From assembly GCA_963971535.1 (NCBI GenBank), contig OZ020592.1, forward strand, positions 56,238,836 through 56,302,835: 64,000 bases of DNA, in the 5' to 3' direction. Origin of the DNA: Notolepis coatsorum. Its lineage: Eukaryota > Chordata > Actinopteri > Aulopiformes > Paralepididae. Under the pieces are notes generated by a model. The model saw only the letters and a list, made by a program, of their open reading frames with translations. It made no database searches and had not been told where the DNA came from. Positions 1,363 through 31,000 of the stretch are shown one piece after another; positions within the stretch are counted from its first letter, which is position 1; each line of letters starts with the position of its first letter. The translations under genes and the position numbers were made by a program.

Positions 1363-1590
1363 CTAACTCTGTCTCTAACTCTCTCTCTCTAACTCTGTCT
1401 CTAACTCTGTCTCCAACTCTGTCTCTAACTCTGTCTCTCTAACTCTGTTTCTAACTCTCTAACTCTGTCTCCAACTCTGTCTCTAACTCTGTCTCTCTAA
1501 CTCTGTCTCTAACTCTCTAACTCTGTCTCTAACTCTGTTTCTCTAACTCTGTCTCTAACTCTGTCTCTCTAACTTTCTCTCTCTCTCTCT
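1363..1590. repeat. CTCTAACTCTGT minisatellite, second block
   Basis: Continuation of the array on the other side of the LINE-A insertion, made of alternating CTCTAA and CTCTGT units with occasional GTTTCT and CTCCAA variants. Confidence 0.95.
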
Positions 1591-1595
1591 CTAAC

Positions 1596-2997
1596 TGTTG
1601 TGAAGGATCAGATTAAACCGAATATATATATTTATTTATGGATATATATTTAATAGTATTTGTATATCGTTTGATATCCCTTGTATATTCCTTGTACATA
1701 TACACTGAATATCCCTTTAGTCTACTAACAGCCCATAATAGTTTCATTCTCTCATTGGACAAGAACTTGGCGCCAGCAGCCAAGCCCCTTGGTTCAAGTT
1801 CAATCGTGCCGACGAACATGTCGTTACTAGCCCGGTTCCGCGTAGGAATACGTCTGGCGAAATACGAATGGTACTATTTGTTCACAGCGCATATATATAT
1901 GGCGCAAGTAAAGTAGAACTTTCTTTTAGTCCCTTAGCCCTTAGTTATTTACCCTCCAACCTAGTGGCAAGACGTTAAGCCTCACCCACGATACACGTGT
2001 GGTGCAGTATGGTCAACTTGGCCTCAGAATGGCATTGAGACATCGTGTGGATTAATAGTTGAATTGTCATAGTTTGGCACTATACCGTCGAGTGGGACGT
2101 ATTTCTATTAAGTTAATAATAGTCTATTATGTATGGTGCATTGTTCGGTTAGAGTTATACAGTGAGTAGTACCCCCATCGTTTCCTCGCGTTATCTAGAG
2201 TCTTAACCAGGCTGGGCAGACCACGTGTGGTGCTTTCATCCGAGGAGTTCTGGGCTAGGACGAGTGGACCTGCACATTGGATTACCTTACCCGGATGACG
2301 GCGAGCCCTACACGACTTGGATTATCTACTTGCTTTGGGTGCTTTGATTTATGCCATGGATAACAGCCAACACTGGTGAGTGTTGGAACTACCCCCCGAG
2401 AGGAGTCCAGGTGAGACGGCGCTCTACCCCAAGTGAGGTCGCCTCACGTCTCTTCGTTGTGGACCGGCAGCTACCGTCTACAAGAGGGCCCAACTGTATT
2501 CATCTGTGGACCAAGGTTCTGTGGGCACCGTGTTCAGCACTCTGAATTCTCCCAAGAAATCGTTGGCCAGATGGGATATCGCCGGCGGCTCTCCTAACCC
2601 CCCCCCCTACTGACTTACAACCAGCAGGACCCCCCTTTAGTATATCCAGCTATAATCATTAAGTACCATCGCTATAGTTCCCTAAAGAACCAGGTTGTAT
2701 ACTTGCTTCCTGCGTAACCAGAGATTGGACATTCAATGTTGATTTGCCTACGAATACTCATTTGCCTTACAAGTGCATTCAAATCATAAATGTCATTAAG
2801 TGAACGTTGTATATACCCTTTGCTATATATTAAATATTCGACGGATACATTTGTGTGGACTTGGTTTCATGGTGGGAAAGTGTTCATCATATCTATATCA
2901 TGTACTGTGTGGCCAGTAGTTAAAGTACATAAAGCGGTAGTGGTTTAATGATACCATACTTATCAATACAGTCAGGGAATTGTACCCCTCAGTTACA
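1596..2997. mobile_element. Solo LTR, fossil, inserted in the minisatellite
   Basis: A 1402-bp single-copy-looking block interrupts the minisatellite. It begins with TG (TGTTGTGAAGG), ends with CA (CAGTTACA) and is flanked by the 5-bp direct repeat CTAAC at 1591-1595 and 2998-3002. These are the marks of an LTR-retroelement integration reduced to one LTR. No internal coding region is present, so it is a fossil. The perfect target duplication argues against great age, but CTAAC is also a word of the array itself. The family (Ty3/gypsy, BEL or ERV-like) cannot be decided from the LTR alone. Confidence 0.72.
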
Positions 2998-4480
<1,483 letters not shown>

Positions 4481-5980
4481 TCTTTCACAGAAGGTATCTC
4501 TCTGGCTTCAGAGCTCAGACCGTACTTGAGTGGATGGTGGTTTATTTTCATCTGCACCACGTCTCAGTGATTAGGAAGGTGTGTGTACCTACCAGTAACC
4601 TAATGGAGACACCTGACACCCTCTCTCTCTCTCTCTCTCTCTCTCGGCTGATAAATTAATGAGCATCTGAGGGGTATCCTCTGTCCCTCTCATGCGATCC
4701 GATATGATGGCAGAATAAAAGCCCTTTCAACTGATGAGAAAGGACGCTGTTGCCTCGAGGCGGCTTGGAAAAGGACTTGGTGTAATAATAATAGCGGAAC
4801 AAAGCGAGGGCCATTGTCCCTGCGCCACAAAACGACTGCATGCTCTCAGATGATCTGTTTGCGTGACTTGTCCAACCAATTCACACTGATACACATGAGG
4901 TATACAGGTAGCATTTTGGCAGAGTACACATATTTATCCCAGCTATTGTGATGCTTTGACCCTTACTGTCAGCACACGAGGCGTTGCCTCTCACTCACCT
5001 GGCCACCTTTCAGCGAGGAAGCTCCCTTTTGAAAATGACTGTTTTTGCACGTGGGTGCCTACAGTGGAAGGGGGAGTCCACCAAAGATTTATTTTTTTGA
5101 TTATAATTCTGCATTAGTAGACATTTTCCTAAAACTTGCAAGGAATATCTTGTGTTTTGAGTTAGAAAGTAAGAAACATGCCATATGATGACATCATACG
5201 AGAGATGGTTGAAAGAAAGTTGTATGGACAGTTATGTTTGTTTGTTTGTTTAATCATATTTTGATATGTTTAAAACGTATGGAAACATGAAACATTTTAG
5301 GTGAAATCCCCCTTTAAAATACATTAAAATAGATATATTAGTTTAGAAAAGCTGCGTATTGCCTTTTAATTGTGTCTGAACCACTTTGGATAAATAGTCC
5401 ATTGATAAAGCTGGACTTCCCTCTGTACACCACTAGATCAAACAGCTTCCATCTAATCTGGTCATACATTTAATCTAGACTGAGTGACACTGTTTTGTCA
5501 TCAGTTTGACCAACTCTGTGATCTTACAACAGCAGTTGGGAAGAAAAGAACAAGAGAATCTGCTTTTGGTCACGTCAAGCATGACCTTTGTAGCGTGACC
5601 TTTGTAGCGTCACCTTTGCGGAAACGTTTATCTTGCTCTTCATCGGAAACACTTTTATTTGGTGGGCATGTATTTGGTGTTAGTGCTGCAAAGCCAAGGT
5701 GTAGAATAAAACAATGACAAGATATTCTAACGACTTGCGTGATTTGATTGCAGGACTATGTGTAATTTGTCACCTTACCTTGAGGTAATTGCATAATTAC
5801 GTTAAAGTGAAGTGTGTTTGAGACCATTTTGTTACATAATGGCCAGTGTGCTGTTATTCTTCTCGTCAGTGTCAGTCTTTAATTAATCCTCTTTCTGACA
5901 GGCAACTGTTGCTCATGCTCAGGTTGGGTTTCTCTCCACCCCGTTCTCACCTGAGTCATTTAACTGAGAATAAGTCACTC
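4481..5980. other. Intergenic DNA, no gene seen
   Basis: After a short CT run at 4619-4645 this stretch is mostly non-repetitive and AT-rich. Its open frames are short and resemble no known protein. A small tandem repeat of TGACCTTTGTAGCG lies near 5582-5610. Confidence 0.6.
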
Positions 5981-8916: not shown

Positions 8917-8920
8917 TTAA

Positions 8921-9337
8921 AGGGGCACTTCACCAAAAAACAATGCTGATATATTTTGCACATAATCTCACACACATCCAAAACAGCTTTGCACACATTC
9001 ATTAAGTTTGACAGTTTGAATATGACCACCAGTGATGTCATCGTGGACATTGAATCCTTGTGTTGTGTTAATTACAGCACCATGAAATTATGTTGATGGG
9101 AAAAAATAACAATACCTTGTCTTATAGGGACTGCTACTTTATCATTTCATTGAGCTGTAATTAACACAATGCAAGGATTAAATGCCCCCAATGACATCAC
9201 TGGGGGCCATATTCAACCTCATTTACTCTCAATAACCATCAAACTAAATTAATGTGTGCAAAACTGTTTAGAGTTTTTGGATGTCTGTGAGATTATGTGC
9301 AAAATTAATCAGCATTGTTTTTTGGTGAAGTGCCCCT
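8921..9337. mobile_element. Foldback MITE in a TTAA target
   Basis: The ends are AGGGGCACTTCACC and its exact inverse, flanked by TTAA at 8917-8920 and 9338-9341. The inverted match continues imperfectly well inward: TTTTGCACATAATCTCACA pairs with TGTGAGATTATGTGCAAAA, and the GTTAATTACAGC segment pairs with GCTGTAATTAAC. The element is therefore largely palindromic. TTAA duplications point to the piggyBac or Kolobok type. It is non-coding. Confidence 0.85.
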
Positions 9338-9439
9338 TTAAGAGAGGAAGCAAAGTCAAGCTGTATGTGAGGGAGAGAGAGTTTTAAGAAACCATTTGTT
9401 GTGCAATTGTGACACACAGTAACACACATACAATTACAT

Positions 9440-15202: not shown

Positions 15203-17073
15203 TTTCTTACCTCCATTTCGAAAGTCATGGGAAAAATTGTCTACGAACAGGTCAAAAAGTACCTTGCGGAAAAAAATCTAATCTACGAATTCCAATCTGG
15301 CTTCAGAACATCCCACTCCACTTACATGCCTTCTCTATTTGAACAACCACATCAAACAAGAGGTGGACGTGGGCAAATACTGCGGCATGGTCATGCTGGA
15401 CCTCCAAAAGGCTTTCGACACTGTCAATCACTCCATTCTGATTGACAAGCTAAAAGCAATTGGTTTTGATAGTTCATCAGTGAGATGGATGCAATCCTAT
15501 CTGGAGGGGAGAGAACAGATGGTGGAGTTAAACGGTACCCTATCCCCCCCCCCCCTCACAGTGAGCTGTGGTGTTCCACAAGGAAGCATACTAGGACCGC
15601 TACTGTTCCTAATTTATGCAAATGACATGTCGTCAGCTTGTGACTGCAACTTGTTCCTGTTTGCGGACGACTCAGCCCTGCTGGTCTCTGACAAGAACAA
15701 GTTACAGGTTGAAAAAACCCTCAGCTCGGAACTAGGCAAAATCTGCATATGGCTCGCTGATAACAAACTATCATTACACATAGGCAAAACAGAGTCCATT
15801 CTCTTCGGTTCAAATAACAAACTCAGCAAGACCGACGGCTTCTCAGTTACAGTGGGTGACAATATTGTCACAAGGAAAGAAGAAATTACCTACCTGGGTT
15901 CCATCCTAGAGGCAAATCTTTCCTGTGACAAAATGGCATCCAATGTAATAAAAAAAGTCAACCAACGAACTTGATTCTTGTACCGGATCTCCTCACTGGT
16001 AAACAAGAATACCCTGAAGACTCTGGCAGGAGCACTCATTCAAGGGTACTACGACTATGCTTGCACCTCATGGTACCAAAGCACCTCAAAGGCGCTAAAA
16101 ACAAAATTACAAACATCTCAAAACAAACTGGTCAGACTACTGCTTGACCTTACTCCTAGAACCCACCTCACCCCTGCCCACTTTGACAACCTAGGATGGC
16201 TTAGAGTAGACGACAGAGTACAGCAACTTGCAATGGGCCTGGTCTACAAGATACACTACACGACCAAGGTACCCATGTACATGTCAAAATACTTCCCAAA
16301 GGTCAGTGAATACCACGATCACAACACCAGAGGGAGCTCCACAAATCATGTTAAACCCAGATTCGGCTCAAACAAGGGACTAAACACGTTTCGCAATTAT
16401 GCCACATCAATGTGGAACGCCCTACCCAAAGCTGTAAAGGAATGTGGATCACTACCCACTTTCAAAACCTCTCTCAAGGGACACCTACGGGAGACTGCAA
16501 TTCAACACTGGCCACTGTAAATATCCTAACCCAACCCCCTCCAATGTACAGTCATTTACCTAGTATGGTTTTGTCAATAGTCCAATGTACAATTTTGTTT
16601 GTTTGTACAGTGTCTCCTCCCCCCCCCCCCCCTCAATGTACAGTTTTACTTGTTTATACAGTGTGCCCCCCCCCCCCCCCCAACCACCTCCAATGTAAAT
16701 TACCCAGTATGGTTGTCAATATCCCAATGTACCCAACCCCCCGGGCCCCCACCCAACCTCCTCCAATGTACAGTTTCTACGTCAAATGTATATACTCCCT
16801 TTTCTTGACTCCTTCTGTATCACAAACAGTACTGTATTTGCAAATCTGGTATGTCATAAATGTATAGATGTAGCAGTACTGACTATCTGTATGTCATGTA
16901 TGTCATATATGTCCTGATGAATTGAAAATGGGGGACCCTGATGTAAACAAGACGAAAGTCTTTCTCTGGTCTGCATCCCCTTAACAATTGTGTGTATTGA
17001 GCTGTACTGTATTGTATTGTACCCATTCTGCAATCTGTTAATAAAGTTTTCAATCAATCAATCAATCAATCAA
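15203..17073 (+). mobile_element. LINE-A copy 3, 5'-truncated, CAAT tail
   Basis: The copy begins inside the RT domain near the NYRPVS-ISKVME segment and runs to the CAAT tandem tail at 17073. Reading pieces: 15188-15445, 15339-15974 and 15978-16520. A 1-base loss near the SHSTD segment moves the frame, and a stop replaces Arg in the [10 protein letters not shown] segment. The catalytic FADD box (FADDSALLV) and VPQGS are present. The C run in the Leu-Ser-Pro turn has 12 cytosines, adding one in-frame Pro. Three C homopolymers mark the 3' UTR. It ends 288 bp before the CDK5RAP3 start codon, in the same orientation. Confidence 0.93.
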
Positions 17074-17079
17074 GGCCTC

Positions 17080-17360
17080 TGTTGTGAGGGTACACACTGC
17101 CCTCTATTGGTTAACTTCAGACTTTTCACTCAAACGGAACGCCACCAATGAGACACCAGCCTTTAGTATTGTAGGATCTTATTGGCTGTATATTGCAAGG
17201 ACTGAACATCTCGTCTTTATATTGGCTCTCGTTCTTATAACGTGTCAAAATGTGTAAACAGTGAATGCTATAGTAACTGTAGCTCATTATACCTGGACTA
17301 AAATTATAATGCGGCGTTAAAAAGTTGGAGAAACGTTAACTTTTAACAATTGAAGACACG
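17080..17360 (+). promoter_or_regulatory. Probable CDK5RAP3 promoter with three CCAAT boxes
   Basis: Between the LINE tail and the ATG lie CCAAT at about 17144-17148 and two inverted copies (ATTGG) at about 17190 and 17220, spaced by about 30 bp. No strong TATA box is placed well. Clustered CCAAT boxes suggest NF-Y-driven, broadly expressed transcription, which suits a housekeeping gene. The transcription start is not determined. Confidence 0.5.
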
Positions 17361-20300
17361 ATGGAGGTAAGATGAAAATGATTCGTGCTCATTCATTTGT
17401 AACGTCACGTAGGCTTCAGCATAATGGTTCTTCTGTTTGTCAATTAGCAGTCAGCTCGCTATACTACTAGCAACTTACTGTTGTCAAACACTGTGAAAGT
17501 GTCAACCTATAATGATGCACTTTCTTGTATTTTTTTCCAAATTTATTTTGCTTACTTCCTATCACACGAGTACGACAGACTGCCTACTGTACTAGTTGCT
17601 TATAACGGTAGCGTAAGATGTCCAACGCCACACAGATGTTGCACTCAACTTTTCCCATCACTGTTCTGTGTTGATCATAGCTAGCTAAGCACACACTCAA
17701 CTACAGCATAATGTGTGGCCTGTCCTGCAAACCATAATATATGACTCAGTGTAAAATGCAATGATTTTTTTTACCTTATCTCAACAGAATCTTAAAAGTC
17801 TACCCATCGACATACAAACCAGCAAGCTCTTGGGTAAGGTTTTGTAAATAAAGTGAAGTAAGGCTTTCATTTTATGTGAGGAAAAACAAGAGTAACGCAT
17901 GACTTACTTTTTACAATATGACTTTACCACAACTTTCACAAATTTCCCATGCTCATGGCTTCTCATACATATTGTCTCCCGTGATTAAAGTATTCATGCT
18001 TTGGCTTCATACCTGGGTACACTATAATGAATCCTTTCTCTGTTGACAGACTGGCTGGTGGACCGGCGGCACTGCAATCTAAAATGGCAGAGTGCGGTCA
18101 TGACGATTCGGGAGAAGATCAACGCTGCCATCCAGGACATGCCAGAGAACGACGAGATCAAACAGCTTTTGTCTGGCTCCTGTAGGTCCCTTAAAAACAC
18201 ACACTGGATAATAACTGTAAATATAATCTGTTTAGATCCCAAAGATTCTATAGGCGAAAGTAATTCACAAATGATTGAAAGTAAACCGAATATGTTACAG
18301 AGTTAGTGTCATCCAATGGCTTATGTTACTGATTACAATTTAAACCAGTATCTTGCAGTTGCTGATGAACTAGAACGCTGTTTGTGTCCTTCTGTTGCTA
18401 GACATTCACTACTTCCACTGCCTGAGGATAGTAGAGATACTGAGGGGAACGGAGGCTTCCTCTAAAAACATCTTCGGCAGATACTCTTCTCAGAGGATGA
18501 TGGTGAGGTGGTACTGACAGGCTCACAGAGATGTTTTCTGAAATACAAACGAGTTCAGTGTGAGTGACTATCATGCTACCGGATAACTACAGTTTACTGG
18601 ATGATGAACAAAGAATTCATGGGAGATGGGAACAATTCAGTGGAGTGGAGTGCTACCAGATATTTGTTAAACAACAAAATCTCTTACCGGAGAGCATCAT
18701 CAACCTTTATTTATTCTCGACGACAATTGAGTTCACCCTCATTTTCAATGTCGTCGAGACATTGCAAAAACGATATGTCCTAGAAATCCTAAAAATATAA
18801 AATATTCTCCATCTTCTGTTTTATTATTACAGGACTGGCAGGAAATAGTGTCCCTCTATGAGGCAGATAATGCGTACCTAGGTAAGTATAGCTTTTAACC
18901 ATGCGCCTCAATGAAGCATATCTATAATAATTATTGTTATTAGTGTAATTATTATCATTCTTGTCCAGAACACTAAATCCAACTTGGCTTTGATAATTAG
19001 TTGGCCAAGAAAACAACAATTTGGTGTCTAGGACTAATTACAGCGAGATTGTAGGCACATATTGAATTCTGAGACACACTATATGCAGGGTGACCTCCAA
19101 AGCGGTTGTAGAGGCACAACCACCTAATTGCATAAATACCACTAACTTCCCTCTGAGCTATATGGAACTTCAGTATAACTTCTTGAATATGAATCTGAGA
19201 AACCCTGAAGCTCTCACTGCAAATTGACCTATCTCAAACTCTGCCCTCTTTTCTTGATACTATAATCATAACTGTTGCTTTCCTCTGACAAACAAAGCAA
19301 CAGTTGTAAATGGCTGCATTTATATAGCGCTTTTATCCAAAGCGCTTTACAATTTGGTCCTCACACATTCACACACCGACGGCAGAGGCAAGCATGCAAT
19401 TAGGGGTTAAGTGTCTTGCTCAAGGACACTTCGACACGCTGCCCGGGAATCGAACCGGGAACCTCCCGATTACCAGACGACTGCTCTACCTCCCGAGCCA
19501 CTGTCTCCTCTAAGTTGTGATTTGGAGGGTCAAGGGTGGACTCTCAACTGCTCTCTCTCGGAGCGAGATCAAATTTATTCATAATTTATATGTTATTTGA
19601 TGCATACTTACTGGTTTTAAATAAACAATTTGATAGTATTTCCCACCTTTGCAGAGCAAGAGTTTTATACAAAAGGAATTCTAGGCCGGTCCCTTATAGA
19701 CTTGTGCCAAATATAGGCCGGTTGTATTCAATGACTGAAGCAAATGAAAGCCTGGGCTATTAATTGAAGTTTTTTACGGTAGGTCAATTAAGCCTCTGAG
19801 TACCATTATTCCTTGAGTATTGACTGTGGTTCAACCCTCCTGTCTACTGTCCTATCTGTATGTCATGTATGTAGGGATGGGTACCGAATTCGGTACTTTT
19901 GAGGTACCGAACCGAAACACGTCGGTACTACCGACTACAACTCTGGCCACTGACCACATGAGCGAACGGGTACATACGCACACAATACACGGCCACTGAT
20001 GGATCCATGGGACTTGGTAAAGCACTATGGACCCAACTATGACCACTGATAAAAACGTAACTACACTAGCATTATAAGACCTAAACATTGCTACCTACCA
20101 TACAAGTGCACTGGTTTAGTGCACTTCCGGTTGCCACTGAGCGGAAATGTTTGTGCGGACCTGTTCTCCCAAACTGGTAAGCAAATGACTGTTTTTACGT
20201 TATTTTCATTTTTACGTTACTATTATTATTATTATTATTTTTTTTTTAAACATTGATCTTAACTGATCACTATGACTTTATTGCTTTTATCGTTATATAT

Positions 20301-23300
20301 GCCTATAATTGTGTACAGCACTTTGAGCTACATGACATGTATGAAAGGTGCTTTATAAATACTTACTTACTTACTTACTTACTTACCGAGTATCGATTCA
20401 AGTGAGATACAAAAAAAAAGAAAAAAAAGAAGTTTTTTAATTTTTTTTGCCTTTTTTATTTTCATGTCAACGTTCACACGCACAATATATGCTTACCTAG
20501 GATTTGACTTGATTCAACAACAAAGCAGTCGGAGCAATGGCAAGCCGAAAACTGTCGAAATTGTAGTTATTTGAAGTTTGGATTTTTTTTTTCACGACTG
20601 AGGTAGTAGGTACATTTAATTTCTTGAGACTAAAGTACAGAAAAAAGGTACCGTTGGGTACCGGTATCGATTCACAGGTACCGGTATCGGTTCAAATGTG
20701 AAAGGTACCCATCCCTACATGTATGTCATATATGTCCTGATGAATTGAAAATGGGGGACCCTGATGTAAACAAGACGAAAGTCTTTCTCTGGTCTGCATC
20801 CCCTTAACACTTTGAGTGCCACGCCCGAGAATATTCGGGTTTACGCCCCGACCGTTTAGTGCCACGTCACGGCTATTCTCGGGTATTTTTTTTATTTATT
20901 TTTTTAGCGATCTGAAATCATATTGCATCACGCGAGCCTACCGTTGGAGATCCAGGGACCGCCGGCGCTCAGATCTGAAAAAAGCGCCCCCTATCGTCTC
21001 CCAGATGGTAAATCACCCTTTTGGAATGGACTCAATGAAAGTGAATGGGAGAACGGATTTCTGACTCCACATTTTACTTCTCACTGATGCAGCCGGGGTC
21101 TACCAGAGTTCATTCTGGAGCCTCTGAGCCGCGCGGATCATGTGTTCTAATCTACTGTATACACGGTTGATCAATACATTTATCGATTTTTTCTAATGGC
21201 GATCGGAAATTGGAATAAACCATTTGGATACCATCTGACCTCAGGTAAGGAAGCTATGTTATCAGTGTTAGGATAATCAGACTCGTTTTCACGGAGATAT
21301 AAGCGTTTCCACTATATGTGATATAGCTGTTTTGACTGTAAAAGCCATGAGGAAATAACAGAAGCGATTATCAGCGCACGGCACGAGCGTGCGTGCGCAC
21401 ACATATACTATCGTTTATTTGAAAACTATTCATAAATAGGCCGACAAATGACAATGTTCTGGAATATTCCAGTAAAAGGCGATTATCATAGAATGTGTTG
21501 TTTTTCCTCTGAAAACGGGTGATTTTCAAAATGCTATCAAACGGAAATGAAGCGATAAAAATACAATCTGCCTTGCCAATGTTGACTGGAAAATGAGTCT
21601 TTGATAAGCGACGGGCAGATTAGACACATAGCCATAATTTTAAACATAGATTAGGCGATATTAACGTTAACATTGGGAGTGGATGGTGGCATCAAGGGGG
21701 TAAAAAGGAAAACCCGGCGTGGCACTCAAAGTGTTAACAATTGTGTGTATTGAGCTGTACTGTATTGTACCCATTCTGCAATCTGTTAATAAAGTTTTCA
21801 ATCAATCAATCCTGTTGTGTGGCTCAGCGGAGGTGGCCAGCCTGCTGTTTCGCAGTGTGAGCTATGAAGCTCCGGCTCTGAGGAAGCAGGTGGCCAAGGC
21901 CCAGCAGCTGCAGCAGGATCTGAGCCGACGGGAGGTGGAGTGTCAGAGCTCAGCCGCAGACCTGAGGGAACGCTACTATACTGCCTGCAAGCAGTACGGT
22001 ATCACGGTAGGTGTGCAATCACACACACACACACACACACAGGGAGAAAAGGTGCTCAGTGCTCAAAATTATAACTTTATATGGAAGGTTTTTCTTAAAT
22101 GTTACTTGTCCTTTCGGACAAATTATGTTTTTGTAGGTTTTTATTGATTTTTGCTACCGGGCAGTCCGGTAGAGAGAGAGAGAGAGAGAGAGAGGAGGAA
22201 TGGTAGATAGACCGGGGAAGACATTCGGCAAAGATCACCGGGTCCGGGAGTCGAACCCGGGTCGGCCGTGTTGCACCGTAGTGCTGTATGCGGTGCGCCA
22301 CTCGGGCGCCCCATGGAAGGTTTTTCTGTAGGAGAATGTTAAAGGGTAAAGTTTTAAAAATATTATTTCCTACTTGCCAATAAGGTCTCAATCAGCAGGG
22401 GCCTTTCTCAGCATAACCCTTGCTGTTCTTCATACTAGCCCGGGCTAGTTAGCCACAAACTACGCCACACTCCAATCTGTACAAGCCCTGAAATGCTAAA
22501 AACCTAATTCACACACTGCACCAACAGTAGGTTTCAGTGGATATTTGTCATTCGTTTTGTGGCTAACAGCCAGGGCTGAGGGTCATACGGTATGAAGAGC
22601 AGCATGGATTGTACTGAGAAAGGACTCTCGATCAACAACATAATTGGTAAGTAGTGTGGAAAGTAGGAAATGTGACTAGTGGTCCAAAATTCTGAGCTTA
22701 TAATAATAATAATAAATTCAATTTGTACCGCACTTTATATTTGTGAAAATCTCAAAGTGCTACAGGAGATAAAGATAAAAAGTTAAATGAATAAAACAAT
22801 TAAAATTAATAAAACAACCAATGAAATGGAAGAACATAAAAAGGTGAAGATGGTGTAATCCGGATATACAGCTGGGTGTCGTCAGCATAACAGTGGATGC
22901 CGGCTGATGATGCGGCCGAGGGGGAGCATGTACAGGGTGAAAAGCAGGGGGCCGAGGACGGATCCCTGGGGGACACCGCAGGTGACGGGGTGGTTGGAGG
23001 ATGTTGCACCAGCCAAGAGGGACTGGAACAAGCCAAGGGCTAGGCTGCCGATAGGTCGAGAAGGACCAGAATGGATGGGGTTCCAGCATCCGCCGCCATC
23101 AGAAGATCGTTGGTGACCCTGACCAGGGCTGTCTGTGCTGTGCGCAGAGCGGAACCCAGACTGGAACTTCTCGAAGATGTTGTTGTCTCTGAGGTGTGCT
23201 TGGAGCTGCTCCGCAACTACCTTCTCCAGCACCTTGTAGAGGAATGGGAGGTTGGAGATGGGCCGGTAGTTGACGAGGGCCTCTGGGTCCAAGGTGAGTT

Positions 23301-26300
23301 TCTTCAGGAGGGGGGTAATGATGGCAGTTTTGAGAGAAGGCGGAACGTGGCCAGCCTGCAAGCAGAGGTTGATGGTGCTGGTCATTAGGGGACCAATAGT
23401 GCAGATGTTGGCTTTCACCAGGGCTGTGGGGAGGGGATCCAGGGCACACGTGGATGACTTCATCCTCCCGATGATGAGCTCGACCTCACGCTGCGTGGTG
23501 TCACTGAAACAGCGGAGGAGCTGGGAGACTTCAGGCTGTAGGACAGCAGGTGGAGCAGGTGAAGAAGAGGAGGGAGCGGATGCCCTCAACTTTGGCTGTG
23601 AAAAATTACATGAAGTCATTACACCGCTTCTCAGTGGTCTCTCTGTGTGCCTGGGTTTGGGGTTTGAGGAGGTGGTGTATGGTGGAAAAAAGCTGTTTAG
23701 AATTGCCGGGGCTATTGTTGATGATGTTGGAGTAGAACTGTGACCGAGCGTCCTTAAGGGCTTTGGAGTAGGCCTTTTGGTGCTCTCTGTAGGCCTCTCT
23801 GTGCACGGTGAGGCGCCGCTCGAGGACACGGCCAGCCACCTTCATCTCTCTCAGCTCGCTGGTGAACCAGGGGGCAGAGCGTGAGAACGTGACCATCTTA
23901 GATTTCACGGGGGCGTGAACATCCAGGAGGCCACTCAGGGCTTTGTTGTAGTAGCCTACTGGGTCACTGGCTGAGGAGAGGGCAGAAGGGGGAAGATGTT
24001 GAAGATCCAAGGCCAGAGCGTCCAGGTTGATGTTTTTTATATTTCTGAAGCAGATCTGGCACTTGGGCTTTGAATGGGGGGGGACAGCATCTCCATGGAA
24101 ACGGCCATGTGATCCGACATGCCCGGGTCGTATACACACAGGTTGTTAACACTTTGAGTGCCAGCAGGGGGCGCACGATTTAGCGCTTGAGTGCCAACGC
24201 TCTATTCAATGAGAGGGCGAGCACATTTGCGAACACATAAACTATATCTTAAATGATGGCTGTGTCTAATACGCCCGTCGCTTATCAATGACTTGCTTGC
24301 AGTCAACATTGTCGAAACGGATTTTTTTTATTTTTTTTTATTATCTTTTTCCCCCTCCTTTTTTCCGATTTTTCTCCCATCCCACTGTTAGTCGTTATGC
24401 CAATTCCCAACCCCCTTCCCGGTTGTTGCGCACTTTCCCCTACTGTTGGTCCAAGAGGCCGGAGACTGCCACATGCTTTCCTCCGACGCATGTGCAGCCA
24501 GCCGGCAGCCAGCCTGGCCGCGCAGATTCTCACTGGGAGAGTGTAACGTGTGGGAGGCCGCACTACCTCTCACCAGATCCTACCTTCGCTGAGCAGGCGC
24601 CCCGACCGAACTGTAGGGGTCACTGTCCACAACGCCCAGGACCCACCCACGGCTCCCCTCCCCCTAACTCAGCCAAACGAGTTAGTATAGCGATCAGCCC
24701 GAGCCAAGGCAATGCTGACTCTCCGGGGTTTTTTAATCGGTACATTTCCGTTTTATACCATTTTGAAAAACGCTCGTTTTGGGAAATTTCCAGACAAAAT
24801 AAGTGATTCTGCAGGAATCGCCCTTTACTGGAATACACAAAAAAATCATTTTTCGGCCTATTTATTTATTAATCGTTTTCAAATAAACGCTAGATTATCG
24901 ATAGTATATTGTGTACTTATGCACGCTAGAGAAGCGGGCTGAAAAATCGATTATCTTATTTCCTGATCAGCACACACACACACATACACACATATGGGAC
25001 ACGTTGATATATCTGTGAAAAAAAACTCTGATTACCCCAAGACTGGTAAAATAGATTCCTTACCTCAGATCAGATGTTCTCCAAAAAGATTATTCCAATT
25101 CCTGATCGCCATTCCAAATATCGATCGCGTTTATTGATCCAACGCTGGGTGCTTTAAACACATATTCCACGCTGTTCTGAGGGACCACAAAGACTGTAAT
25201 CGGCTCGGATTACATGCCTGACAAGTAAAATGTGGATTCCGGATTTTCTTTTCCCCATGCACGGTCTGCACGGTTTCAGCCAGCTAATCACCCAACCCAC
25301 AAGGGTATGTGATTTGACACAAACCACCATTGACCTCATTTTGACCTCTGACAAATCCATGATCTCCAATAAAGGGGTGATAGCATGCGGGTTAAGTGAT
25401 AATTATATGATTTTCTGTACCCGCAAAAAGCTAAAACAGAAGGCCGGCTGTCACAAAACAGTCGCATCTAGAGACCTCAAAACTTACTCTAGAGAGGCCT
25501 TTAACCTAGAACTGGGGAGCTTGGACTGGTCAGATGAACTCAGTGGTACACAGGTTGAAGAAACATGGCTTGGATTCAAAACCAAATTCACAGCAATACT
25601 CAACAACATGGCACCCCTAAGAACCACCAGGGTTAAAAATCGCGCTGAGCCATGGATGCACACTGAAATACTGGCCGCTATGAAAACCAGAGACAAAAAA
25701 TGCTCTGAACTTCATAAAAGTCAGACAAAGCTTTCCAAAAGCTCAAACAGTGAACTCCAAGCCCACGTGGTTGAACTACAAATTCAAAGAAACAGACTAA
25801 GAAATGACGTAAACACCATGATCAGAACAGCAAAAAGAAATTTCATAAACGACAAAACTGAGAAACAAAAACAAACCCCACGAACTTTGGAAATTACTCA
25901 ATAATCAACTAGGCTGCAGTAAAAAACTTAAAACCAGATTCTCAAACATAAACATAAAGACGGACAACACGCTCATCACAGACAAGCTGGATGTAGCCAA
26001 TTACTTAAACATCATCTTCACAAACATAGCCACAACACTGGTAAACAAACTACCCTCCCACTCAGGGCATTATGGGGTAGAACACATAGTAGCATACTAC
26101 AAAAACCTAGGGGTCCACAAAGATGACTTCAAACTTGAAATGGTAACAACCGATGAGCTACTCAAAAAATTTAGCGCCCTCCAACCTAACAAGGCCACTG
26201 GCCATGACAACATCCCCTCCAAATTCCTCAGAGACGCAGCAGCCGCCATCACCCCAGTCATCACACACATAATAAACCTCTCTATAAAACAGGGACACGT

Positions 26301-27515
26301 CCCCAAGGACTTCAAAATTGCGAGAGTGACCCCTCTGCACAAAAAGGGCAGCAAATTAGACCCAGGCAACTACCGCCCTGTTTCTATTCTTACCTCCATC
26401 TCGAAAGTCATGGAGAAAATAGTCTACGAACAGGTCGAAAAGTACCTGGCGGAAAAAAATCTAATCTACGAATTCCAATCTGGCTTCAGAACGTCCCACT
26501 CCACTGACGCATGCCTCCTCTATTTGAACCACCACATCAAACAAGAGGTGGACGCGGGCAAATACTGCGGCATGGTCATGCTGGACCTACAAAAGGCCTT
26601 CAACACTGTCAATCACTCCATTCTGATGGACAAGCTAAAAGCAATTGGTTTTGATAGCTTATCAGTGAGCTGGATGCAATCCTACCTGGAGGGGAGAGAA
26701 CAGATGGTAGAGGTAAACGGTACTCTATCCCCCCCCCTCACAGTGAGCTGTGGTGTTCCACAAGGAAGCATACTAGGACCGCTACTCTTCCTAATTTATG
26801 CAAATGACATGTCGTCAGCCTGTGACTGCAACTTGTTCCTGTTTGCGGACGACTCAGCCCTGCTGGTCTCTGACAAGAACAAGTTGCAGGTTGAAAAAAC
26901 CCTCAGCTCGGAACTAGGCAAAATCTGCATATGGCTCGCTGATAACAAACTATCATTACACATGGGCAAAACAGAGTCCATTCTCTTCGGTTCAAATAAC
27001 AAACTCAGCAAGACCGACGGCTTCTCAGTTACAGTGGGTGACAATATTGTCACAAGGAAAGACGAAATTACCTACCTGGGTTCCATCCTAGAGGCAAATC
27101 TTTCCTGTGACAAAATGGCATCCAATGTAATAAAAAAAGTCAACCAACGAACTAGATTCTTGTACCGGATCTCCTCTCTGGTAAACAAGAATACCCTGAA
27201 GACTCTGGCAGGAGCACTCATTCAAGGGTACTACGACTATGCGTGCACCTCATGGTACCAAAGCACCTCAAAGGCGCTTAAAACAAAATTACAAACATCA
27301 CAAAACAAACTGGTCAGACTACTACTTGACCTGAACCCCAGAACCCACCTCACCCCTGCCCACTTTGACAACCTAGGATGGCTTAGAGTAGACGACAGAG
27401 TAGGGCTGGGCGATATGGAAAAAAATCATATCGCGATAACGATATGATAATTTTATTTTATTTCTCGATATCGATAATTATCGAATTGTTATAAGTATAA
27501 AAAAAAAAATTAAAG

Positions 27516-27547
<32 letters not shown>

Positions 27548-27999
27548 GATGTATGTTTATTTTGCAGCCATTCTTTGTCATTGCCGCCATCTTTAGTGTT
27601 ACTGTACATCCCCTCACACTCCAGTTCTCAGGCTGCAGCTGGTTTAAAAGCTAAAGTAAACCGGCTTCTCTGCTGGCTGTGGCTCCAGAGGAGTTGAACA
27701 GTTCTGACTCTGCTAGTTTATTTTCGATCTTTTGGCGCTTTTTTGGTGGACAAACCACCGCACATGTGCACTGTGACTCGTGACTGGAGTCAAGTTCTGC
27801 TAGCACACATAGCCTACTGTGTACAGACGGTTTCAAAATGTATTTTAAATTAGAAAGCAAACAAAATAAATGGACAAGAGAAAAATAAATCTGAATTTGG
27901 TCAGTATTGTCATTTGGACAAGCAAAGCCATTACTTTAAGTTGCAGGCAAGAAAGACAAGTCTGTCCACTGTCTCTGGTTTTAAAACTGCCCTGTTGCA

Positions 28000-28030
<31 letters not shown>

Positions 28031-31000
28031 CGATTTTTCGATTTTTTAAATTTCGATATTCGATATCGATTATTAAAATATATCGCGATATTTATCGTTA
28101 TCGTTATATCGCCCAGCCCTACGACAGAGTACAGCAACTTGCAATGGGCCTGGTCTACAAGATACACTATACGACCGGGGTACCCATGTACATGTCAAAA
28201 TACTTCCCAAAGGTCGGTGAATACCACAACCACTACACCAGAGGAAGCTCAACAAATCATGTTAAACCCAGATTCGGCTCAAACAAGGGACTAAACACGT
28301 TTCGCAATTATGCCACAACAATGTGGAACGCCCTACCCAAAGCTGTAAAGGAATGTGAATCCCTACCCACATTCAAAACCGCTCTTAAAGAGCACCTACG
28401 GGAGGCTGCAATTCCAAACTGGCCACCGTAAATGCCCAAAACCCCCAGCACCTCCTAATAGACAGTCTCCTCCCCACCGCATGTATATATTCCCTCCCCG
28501 CCGTATGTATATTTCTCTCCAACCCACCCACCCCCTCCTAATGTACAGTCCCCTCCCCATCATATGTATATACTCTGTCAGGATCTAGGGGTAACAGTAC
28601 TGTATATTTGAATACCGTTTATGTCACAAATGTATCTGTACTAAATACCTATATGTCCCTATGCCATAAATGTCATGTATGTTGTGTATGTCATAAATGT
28701 CTATATGAATTGAAAATGGGGGACCCTGATGGAAACAAGACAAACGTCTTTCTCAGGTCTGCATCCCCTTAACAATTGTATGTATTGAGCCGTACTGTAT
28801 TGTACCCATTCTGCAATCTGTTAAATAAAGTTTTCATTCATTCATTCATTCATGCGTTTTCATTCAGTCCAATCCAAAGGGTGCATTACCATCCGGGAGA
28901 CGATAGGGGGCGGTATTTTCCCTGTTCGAGCTCAGAGTGCTAGTGGTAATGTGAGGCTAGATTGATGAAAAATGAATGGAAATCGCTAATAAGAAAATAT
29001 TACGATTAATAACGAGATTTCTCGTCGTTGGCACTGAACGGTTGGCATGAAATACCGAGAATTATCGTTGTTATCGCTGTTAATAGGGGCAGCAAGGTCG
29101 GAAATAACCAGGTCAAGTGTGTGCCCCCTGTCGTGTGTGGGGACGTGCACATGCTGTGTCAGGTTGACACTGTCCAGCATTTGTAAAAACTCTGATGCAG
29201 AGTGACATGAGGGGGTGTCGACATGAATGTTAATGTCACCGAGATTTACCATGTTTGCAGATGTAGTGCAGAGAGTGGTTAGGAGGTCATGTATTTCGGG
29301 AATAAATGCTGGGTTTGGTTTGGGTGGCCGGTAGATGACCAATATGGTCAGAAGAGTGGTCAAAGTAGGAGGGATTCAATCTGAGGCAAGAAGGGGTACA
29401 TGTGGTTCTAGACGACATCACACAGACTAGTTAAATAACACCATACCAGGATATCATCATATTGGTGGGAGTGCAGGAAGGATGAGACGGCAAGTTTCAA
29501 GTTTCTTTAATAGTTGTCATACAGAAGTACAGAATACTTTTGTACAAAATGCTTCTTACTGTTGCGCTCCAGAGACTGTGCAAGACAAGATAAGTATGAA
29601 ATAAAAACATAGTAAAATTAGAAGTAAAAGAAAGAGGTCACAGTGTTCAGTTTAGACATATGTACAATGTTCGATGCAGAATAGACGTAGTTACCATACA
29701 ATATACAATACTGTGCAGTGTACTAATATACAATACTATATAGTGCAAGGCAGAAATGGAGAAATGGGACGAGGTGCAATTTAGGTACAATTCACAGTAG
29801 GTGTACGAGTTGTAGTGCAAATCCTTTATCAATAAATATAAAGTGTAAGTGTGTTTGTGTGATCTAAAGTGTGGAGAGTGGGTGCTGCAGTGTGTTGTTT
29901 GTTTGAGTGAGTGTGTGGGTGTGTGTGCTGTGTGCATTTGATGGTTGTTGCATAGTGATTATTGTTCGTTTAGCGATTATTGTTCGTTTAGCAGCCTGAT
30001 GGCCTGGGGATAGAAGCTTCTTCTGAGTCTTTCTGTGCTCGCCTTAAGACTCCGGTATCGCTTGCCTGACCGCAGCAGTTCAAAGAGGCAGTTGTTCGGG
30101 TGGCTCGAGTCCTTAATAATTCTCTTAGCCTTCCCCTTGCACCGCTTGTTGTAAATGTTCTGGAGGGTGGGAAGCCCCCCTCCAATTGTGCGTTCGGCTG
30201 AACGTGTCACTCTTTGTAGTCTGCTACGGTCTTGTGCAGTGCTATTCCCAAACCAGGAGGTGATGTTGCCGGTCAGGATGCTCTCTATTGTACATGAGTA
30301 GAAGTTCCTAAGGATCTTCTGACTGACTTGGAACTTCCTTAGGCGCCTGAGGAAGTAGAGGCGTTGTCGTGCCTTCTTCACAACACTGTCAATGTGTGTG
30401 GTCCATGTCAAGTCCTCGGATATGTGGGCTCCGAGGTACTTGAAACTGTTCACTCTCTCAACCGGTGCCCCGTCGATGCTGAGGGGGCTGTAGTCCTTGA
30501 CCCCCGACCTCCTGAAGTCCACAATCATCTCTTTTGTTTTGCTGACGTTCAGGGAGAGGCAGTTCTCCTGACACCACTGTGACAGGTTCTCTACCTCTTC
30601 CAGGTAGGCCCTTGGTGGTCGAGTTATTCCCTTTACTTCCCAACATAAATGTTCATGCATAAAGTGCAGAGACGATCGACGTAAACGGTAGCTGATGTAT
30701 GTAAATAATAACGACACCCCCGGTTTCCCAGAATGCACCCCTTATACCCTCTGAACCTATACTTTTTTTATTTCTTTATTTTGTATTAACTTTCTCTCTG
30801 CCAGGGGGAGAATGTTGCCCGGGAGCTGCAGGCCCTGGTGAAGGATCTACCGACGGTTCTTGGGGAAGTAGGGAGGGACGTAGCCAGACTGGAGGAGCAG
30901 ATCCAACTTTACACAGCGTTCACAAACTTTGTCTGTGAGTGGTGAGTATATAGACCCATGTCTGAACTATGGAGATGCATAACATCCATGTCTTGCACAA

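Follow-up and report, generated by a model that had tools for sequence, protein, structure and literature searches.

A 64,000-nucleotide stretch of the Notolepis coatsorum genome (contig OZ020592.1, positions 56,238,836 to 56,302,835; hereafter the window) carries a nest of five mobile elements in a single intron of the gene CDK5RAP3. An L2-type long interspersed nuclear element (LINE) holds a piggyBac-like element, the piggyBac-like element holds a short interspersed nuclear element (SINE) and a second LINE (here LINE-A), and LINE-A in turn holds a hAT-like element. We read the nest, with a probability of roughly 95%, as the product of ordinary insertions, one after another, within an intron of a large, transposon-rich genome (3.42 Gb). 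An earlier note on this DNA had proposed this arrangement and the order L2, then piggyBac-like, then SINE and LINE-A, then hAT; junction anatomy and empty sites support that order, and leave the SINE and LINE-A unordered relative to each other. Empty sites, which the note had claimed for two layers, are now found for each layer in the same genome. The repeats are high-copy (first-look candidates numbered 5052, 1423, 1162, 422 and 287 for the piggyBac-like, SINE, LINE-A, hAT and L2 queries), and the copies compared with the nest are best matches by similarity, not a random sample.

The outermost host, L2, lies on the minus strand in two parts. Its 3' part (22701..24145) ends in an (ATT)n tail and encodes a reverse transcriptase (RVT_1, E 1.1e-14 on 22882-23841), and its 5' part lies beyond the insert, at 29084..29350 at least, with the true 5' limit somewhere after 29350. 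The L2 reading frame breaks after 24145 and picks up at 29084 with no codon lost; once the halves are joined, the endonuclease words DLVIS and SDH stand 21 codons apart, the same spacing as in LINE-A. Both other L2 copies that were read (loci L077 and L078, aligned up to 29350) run uninterrupted through the piggyBac site with a single TTAA, so the insert is absent from 2 of 2 loci. Three short L2 matches occur within the 262,962 bases of the 70 fetched loci, none crossing the piggyBac site. A search for a target duplication at the outer ends of L2 found none; there is only a 9-bp word, AAAGTAGGA (22660 / 29362), which we do not accept as one. The name L2 is a putative one that goes by motifs, besides the RVT_1 domain.

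The non-autonomous element held by L2 occupies 24146..29083 on the plus strand, inserts included. TTAA copies at 24146-24149 and 29080-29083 bound it, and its left end reads CACTTTGAGTGCCA. The window contains four cases of TTAA with 10-nt inverted ends, some of which are not elements, versus one in 30 shuffles combined. Relatives in loci L002, L003, L006 and L007 measure 868-968 bp and finish in TTAA and inverted ends; for L004, L005 and L008 the right end was not found within the locus. The inverted ends are intact in L002, L003 and L006 and in pB2, a second copy within the window described below, and have one mismatch in L007. Over its left 183 bases the nest copy is 96.8-97.3% identical to L002, L003, L006, L007 and L008, 93.5% to L004 and 86% to L005. 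The TTAA duplication characteristic of the piggyBac superfamily is found at the nest borders, against the single TTAA of L077 and L078, and again where pB2 sits in a LINE-A TTAA. Kolobok elements likewise duplicate TTAA, which would allow the element to be of Kolobok rather than piggyBac type, but Kolobok termini are given as 5'-RR and YY-3' (PMC9587614, in excerpt) and those of pB2, CACTTTGAGTGCCA...TGGCACTCAAAGTG, are 5'-CA...TG-3'. Kolobok membership is rejected on these ends and we hold it to be improbable. With non-autonomous members of the piggyBac superfamily the nest element shares the TTAA duplication and inverted ends that are not RR...YY, while it differs from them in its altered right end and in that no transposase is seen inside it (no genome search for a transposase was made).

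Two retroposons interrupt the piggyBac-like element. The first is a SINE-like retroposon on the minus strand (24330..24727), inserted at GTTTTTT/AATC; a short T-run (GTTTTTT, 24728-24734) forms its duplication, whose left copy is degenerate. It is 5'-truncated: the alignments of 29 fetched relatives (96.8-98.9% identical) stop at 24727, with the sequence going on with AGT in 14 of them (the plus-strand rows, where flanks were read). The site is empty in 5 of 8 piggyBac-like loci and a SINE is present there in the other three, L004 (= L069), L005 (= L070) and L071. The second is LINE-A, on the plus strand (25261..28850), which is 5'-truncated, ends in an (ATTC)n tail, is flanked by the target duplication CATGC (25256-25260 / 28851-28855) and encodes its own reverse transcriptase (RVT_1, E 3.9e-35 on 25849-27399). 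Its site is empty in 6 of 8 piggyBac-like loci, and the remaining two do not align across it. Searching the genome with the 5' join of LINE-A returned 2821 candidates; among the 40 scored matches only one, the window itself, spans the join, and the other 39 stop where the duplication ends, at 25260 or 25261. Both LINEs resemble other fish LINEs in their reverse transcriptase domain, 5' truncation and short-repeat 3' tails. Read by eye, L2 has several frame changes within about 1.5 kb and LINE-A has one over its coding stretch.

The innermost layer is a non-autonomous hAT-like element (27401..28121) with 16-nt perfect inverted ends, TAGGGCTGGGCGATAT, inside an 8-bp target duplication, CGACAGAG (27393..27400 on the left, 28122-28129 on the right). 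All 29 of the LINE-A loci fetched lack an insert at this site, and the frame stays open across it in three LINE-A copies of the window itself. Pairs of 8-bp duplications with 8-nt inverted ends occur twice in 17000-31000 and not at all in 50 dinucleotide shuffles. One relative (L075) has an identical 456-base interior and its own duplication, CATCAGGT. Across 703 aligned bases it shows 2 substitutions relative to the nest copy, and the alignment has a further 24 gap positions, most of them in A/T runs. The nest copy has the 8-bp duplication and short inverted ends of the hAT superfamily, for which inverted ends of 5-27 bp are given (PMC2874221, in excerpt). The nest element is A/T-rich and contains long runs of either base, and no transposase is seen in it; an autonomous partner was not looked for.

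On the favoured reading the stack grew as follows. The L2-type LINE inserted first, presumably by target-primed reverse transcription; a non-autonomous piggyBac-like element was then cut and pasted, presumably by an enzyme of the corresponding kind, into an L2 TTAA that two empty L2 copies still display. The SINE followed into the piggyBac-like copy, probably primed at the T-run GTTTTTT/AATC, which marks the site. LINE-A entered the same copy with its 5-bp duplication, and the hAT-like element came last, into LINE-A, with its 8-bp duplication. The frames of L2 and LINE-A do continue through the joins, as had been proposed. The joins between layers are all present. The further claim that every junction is resolved does not hold for the outer ends of L2, which lack a duplication, and it is qualified by the altered right end of the piggyBac-like element and by the degenerate left duplication of the SINE.

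If the order is right, divergence should rise from hAT to L2, as the earlier note had predicted. Counting nest-specific substitutions (nest copy versus the majority of fetched relatives) gives 2/703 for hAT (a single relative), 4/341 for the SINE (29 copies), 21/2446 in total for LINE-A (4/991 with 29 copies, 7/571 with 28 of 29, 10/884 with 23 of 29), 17/856 in total for the piggyBac-like element (2/178 with 7 copies, 10/488 with 7, 5/190 with 5 of 7) and 15/900 in total for L2 (8/429, 5/248 and 2/223, at sites where L077 and L078 agree, gaps left out). By Fisher's test on these full counts, the piggyBac-like element differs from LINE-A at p 0.014 and L2 from LINE-A at p 0.057. With smaller counts, which leave out the pieces of LINE-A and of the piggyBac-like element used as queries, hAT differs from LINE-A at p 0.048 and from the piggyBac-like element at p 0.0011. 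Identity to the nearest other copy among scored matches is 100% for the hAT interior, 100% (rounded) for LINE-A, 99% for the SINE, 96-97% for the piggyBac-like element and 92% for L2. The predicted direction is therefore borne out, with hAT lowest, LINE-A and SINE in the middle and piggyBac-like and L2 highest, while several single steps are not separated and the last two layers are indistinguishable.

A number of points weigh against the proposed order. On full counts hAT and LINE-A differ only at p 0.14 and SINE and LINE-A at p 0.54; on the smaller counts the piggyBac-like element against LINE-A (15/678 vs 17/1455) gives p 0.084, and SINE against piggyBac-like stands at p 0.33. For L2 and the piggyBac-like element the rates nominally run the wrong way round (1.67% vs 1.99%, p 0.72). 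The L2 figure comes from two copies at agreeing sites only, with 25 and 31 gap positions omitted, and the hAT figure from one copy with 24 gap positions omitted, the compared copies being best matches and not random ones. Lastly, the nest piggyBac-like copy does not have intact inverted ends: its last 20 or so bases at the right (within 29040-29083) are altered relative to its relatives, although the TTAA and the L2 frame are intact, so that the right border is placed by the TTAA, by the L2 frame and by both of the empty L2 copies.

The SINE site itself is recurrent. The T-run GTTTTTT/AATC of the piggyBac-like element has been hit by a SINE in four copies, namely the nest, L069 and L071 (AATC side intact) and L070 (right side diverged), and the SINEs are of different subfamilies with different duplication lengths. 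The right-hand joins read GTTTTTT/AATC in the nest, CGAAACGGATTGTTTTTT/AATC in L069 and AAACGGATTGTTTTTT/AATC in L071, which points to the same first nick with a different second cut in these three copies; in L070 the right side reads GATTGTTTTT and then GAAAC, with no clear duplication. Identity to the nest is 86% for the host and 95% for the SINE in L070, 94% and 76.5% in L071, and 93.5-95% and 79% in L069. Because the divergences of host and SINE are unequal and the duplication lengths differ, the four SINEs are read as separate insertions, which on sequence grounds would have used one T-rich nick site. A SINE and host travelling together as one composite subfamily is less likely, since host and SINE divergences do not agree in L069, L070 or L071. 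The SINEs of L070 and L071 have a longer head than the truncated nest copy, and contain there words that, by eye, resemble A and B boxes; Rfam run on L071 1640-2200, the SINE, gave no tRNA match up to E 5. A query of 24000-24400 (5052 candidates) gave 39 scored non-self matches, of which 36 end at query positions 330-351 and three continue into a SINE; this query contained SINE bases, so that SINE-bearing copies are over-represented among its matches. L1-type endonucleases prefer TTTT/AA. Conversely, LINE-A tails have taken up the piggyBac-like element twice at one and the same TTAA (pB2 and L006). We would put at about even odds the suggestion that the T-run is a built-in landing site for SINEs and that nests in this genome may form because families offer target sites to one another.

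These SINE copies also bear on the possibility that the piggyBac-like element gained the SINE, LINE-A or both elsewhere and entered L2 as a loaded composite, in which case the order of L2 and piggyBac-like against SINE and LINE-A would be wrong here. Three other piggyBac-like copies have a SINE at the same site, an excised composite donor would leave no copy behind, and cut-and-paste elements can carry cargo (piggyBac is tabulated above 9 kb in the excerpted part of PMC2874221). However, the unequal host and SINE divergences in L069, L070 and L071, together with their differing duplication lengths, fit separate SINE insertions, the 5' join of LINE-A is found only in the window among the 40 scored matches (2821 candidates), and LINE-A has fewer nest-specific substitutions than its piggyBac-like host (p 0.014, or 0.084 without the searched pieces). 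We consider the loaded composite quite improbable, and sequential insertion at this locus the better account. That the nest is an assembly artefact, joining high-copy repeats from different places, is highly improbable, since the joins between layers coincide with target duplications and continuous frames, and a misjoin exactly at TTAA, CATGC and CGACAGAG is not expected.

The same families nest in the reverse direction nearby and elsewhere. The second piggyBac-like copy, pB2 (20804..21737, minus strand, 934 bp), lies in intron 5 about 2.4 kb upstream of the nest, has 22-nt perfect ends including the TTAA, lacks the SINE and LINE-A inserts, and, once inserts are removed, has 77.9% identity with the nest copy across 863 alignment columns. 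Its insertion point is a TTAA within the tail of a LINE-A fragment, c7 (20718..21811, plus strand), and locus L006 has a piggyBac-like copy in the same TTAA of a LINE-A tail. At its left, c7 also hosts a second hAT-like element (19872..20717) with 14-nt ends TAGGGATGGGTACC and the duplication CATGTATG (19864-19871 / 20718-20725); this element appears to contain another insert, whose end is an ACTT repeat at about 20360-20386. Locus L071 shows the nest's arrangement turned round, with a hAT-like element interrupted by a LINE-A into which a further LINE-A has gone (duplication AGAGTCTT). The stretch 1493-5602 of that locus is a deep nest in its own right: there is a piggyBac-like element with a SINE and with this hAT-like element, and the hAT-like element, whose left end is missing, is the one that holds LINE-A within LINE-A. 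These reverse nestings turned up unsought in few loci. Given that piggyBac-like elements enter LINE-A (pB2) and LINE-A enters hAT (L071), the order in the nest concerns these copies only, and its use as an order of family activity is ruled out.

The placement in CDK5RAP3 intron 6, also claimed earlier, stands on the flanking exons. A plus-strand exon chain matches the human CDK5RAP3 protein; the exon at 21828..22006 (59 aa, plus strand) matches CDK5RAP3 chains in PDB at E 1.4e-19, and the match of the exon downstream of the nest starts at 30805. An acceptor-like CAG lies at about 17789; assuming one exon ahead of it, 21828..22006 is exon 6 and intron 6 runs from 22007 to 30804. Nothing points to an effect on the host gene, though no test for one was made. 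The tail of c7 stops at 21811, 16 nt ahead of the start of exon 6 at 21828 (acceptor AG 21826-21827), and the branch point of exon 6 is therefore probably within DNA of transposon origin. Intron 6 also contains, shortly before the nest, a SINE-like insert (22096-22312) with a perfect 15-bp duplication, ATGGAAGGTTTTTCT (22081-22095 / 22313-22327). Farther away, at 8917-9341, TTAA-bounded 14-nt inverted ends AGGGGCACTTCACC stand about 420 bp apart; being purine-first, this pair would fit a Kolobok-type element. On the window, ARAGORN gave no hit and Rfam at gathering score no match, and a literature search with the terminal sequences gave, judging by title, no transposon paper among the matches listed.

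Nested insertions are established as a means of relative dating: TinT orders retroposon activity (PMC3014933) and interruption analysis is a comparable use (PMC2517846). Like the nest, these methods rest on insertions of element into element, but they draw on many insertions genome-wide, and the nest is a single locus. It is an ordinary, well-preserved case of a common pattern, and a clean worked example in which empty counterparts of every layer exist within one genome. The reciprocal nestings show that a single locus cannot order families, and that one nest dates copies only. The sole point that may be of specialist interest is the repeated use of one SINE site in the piggyBac-like element.

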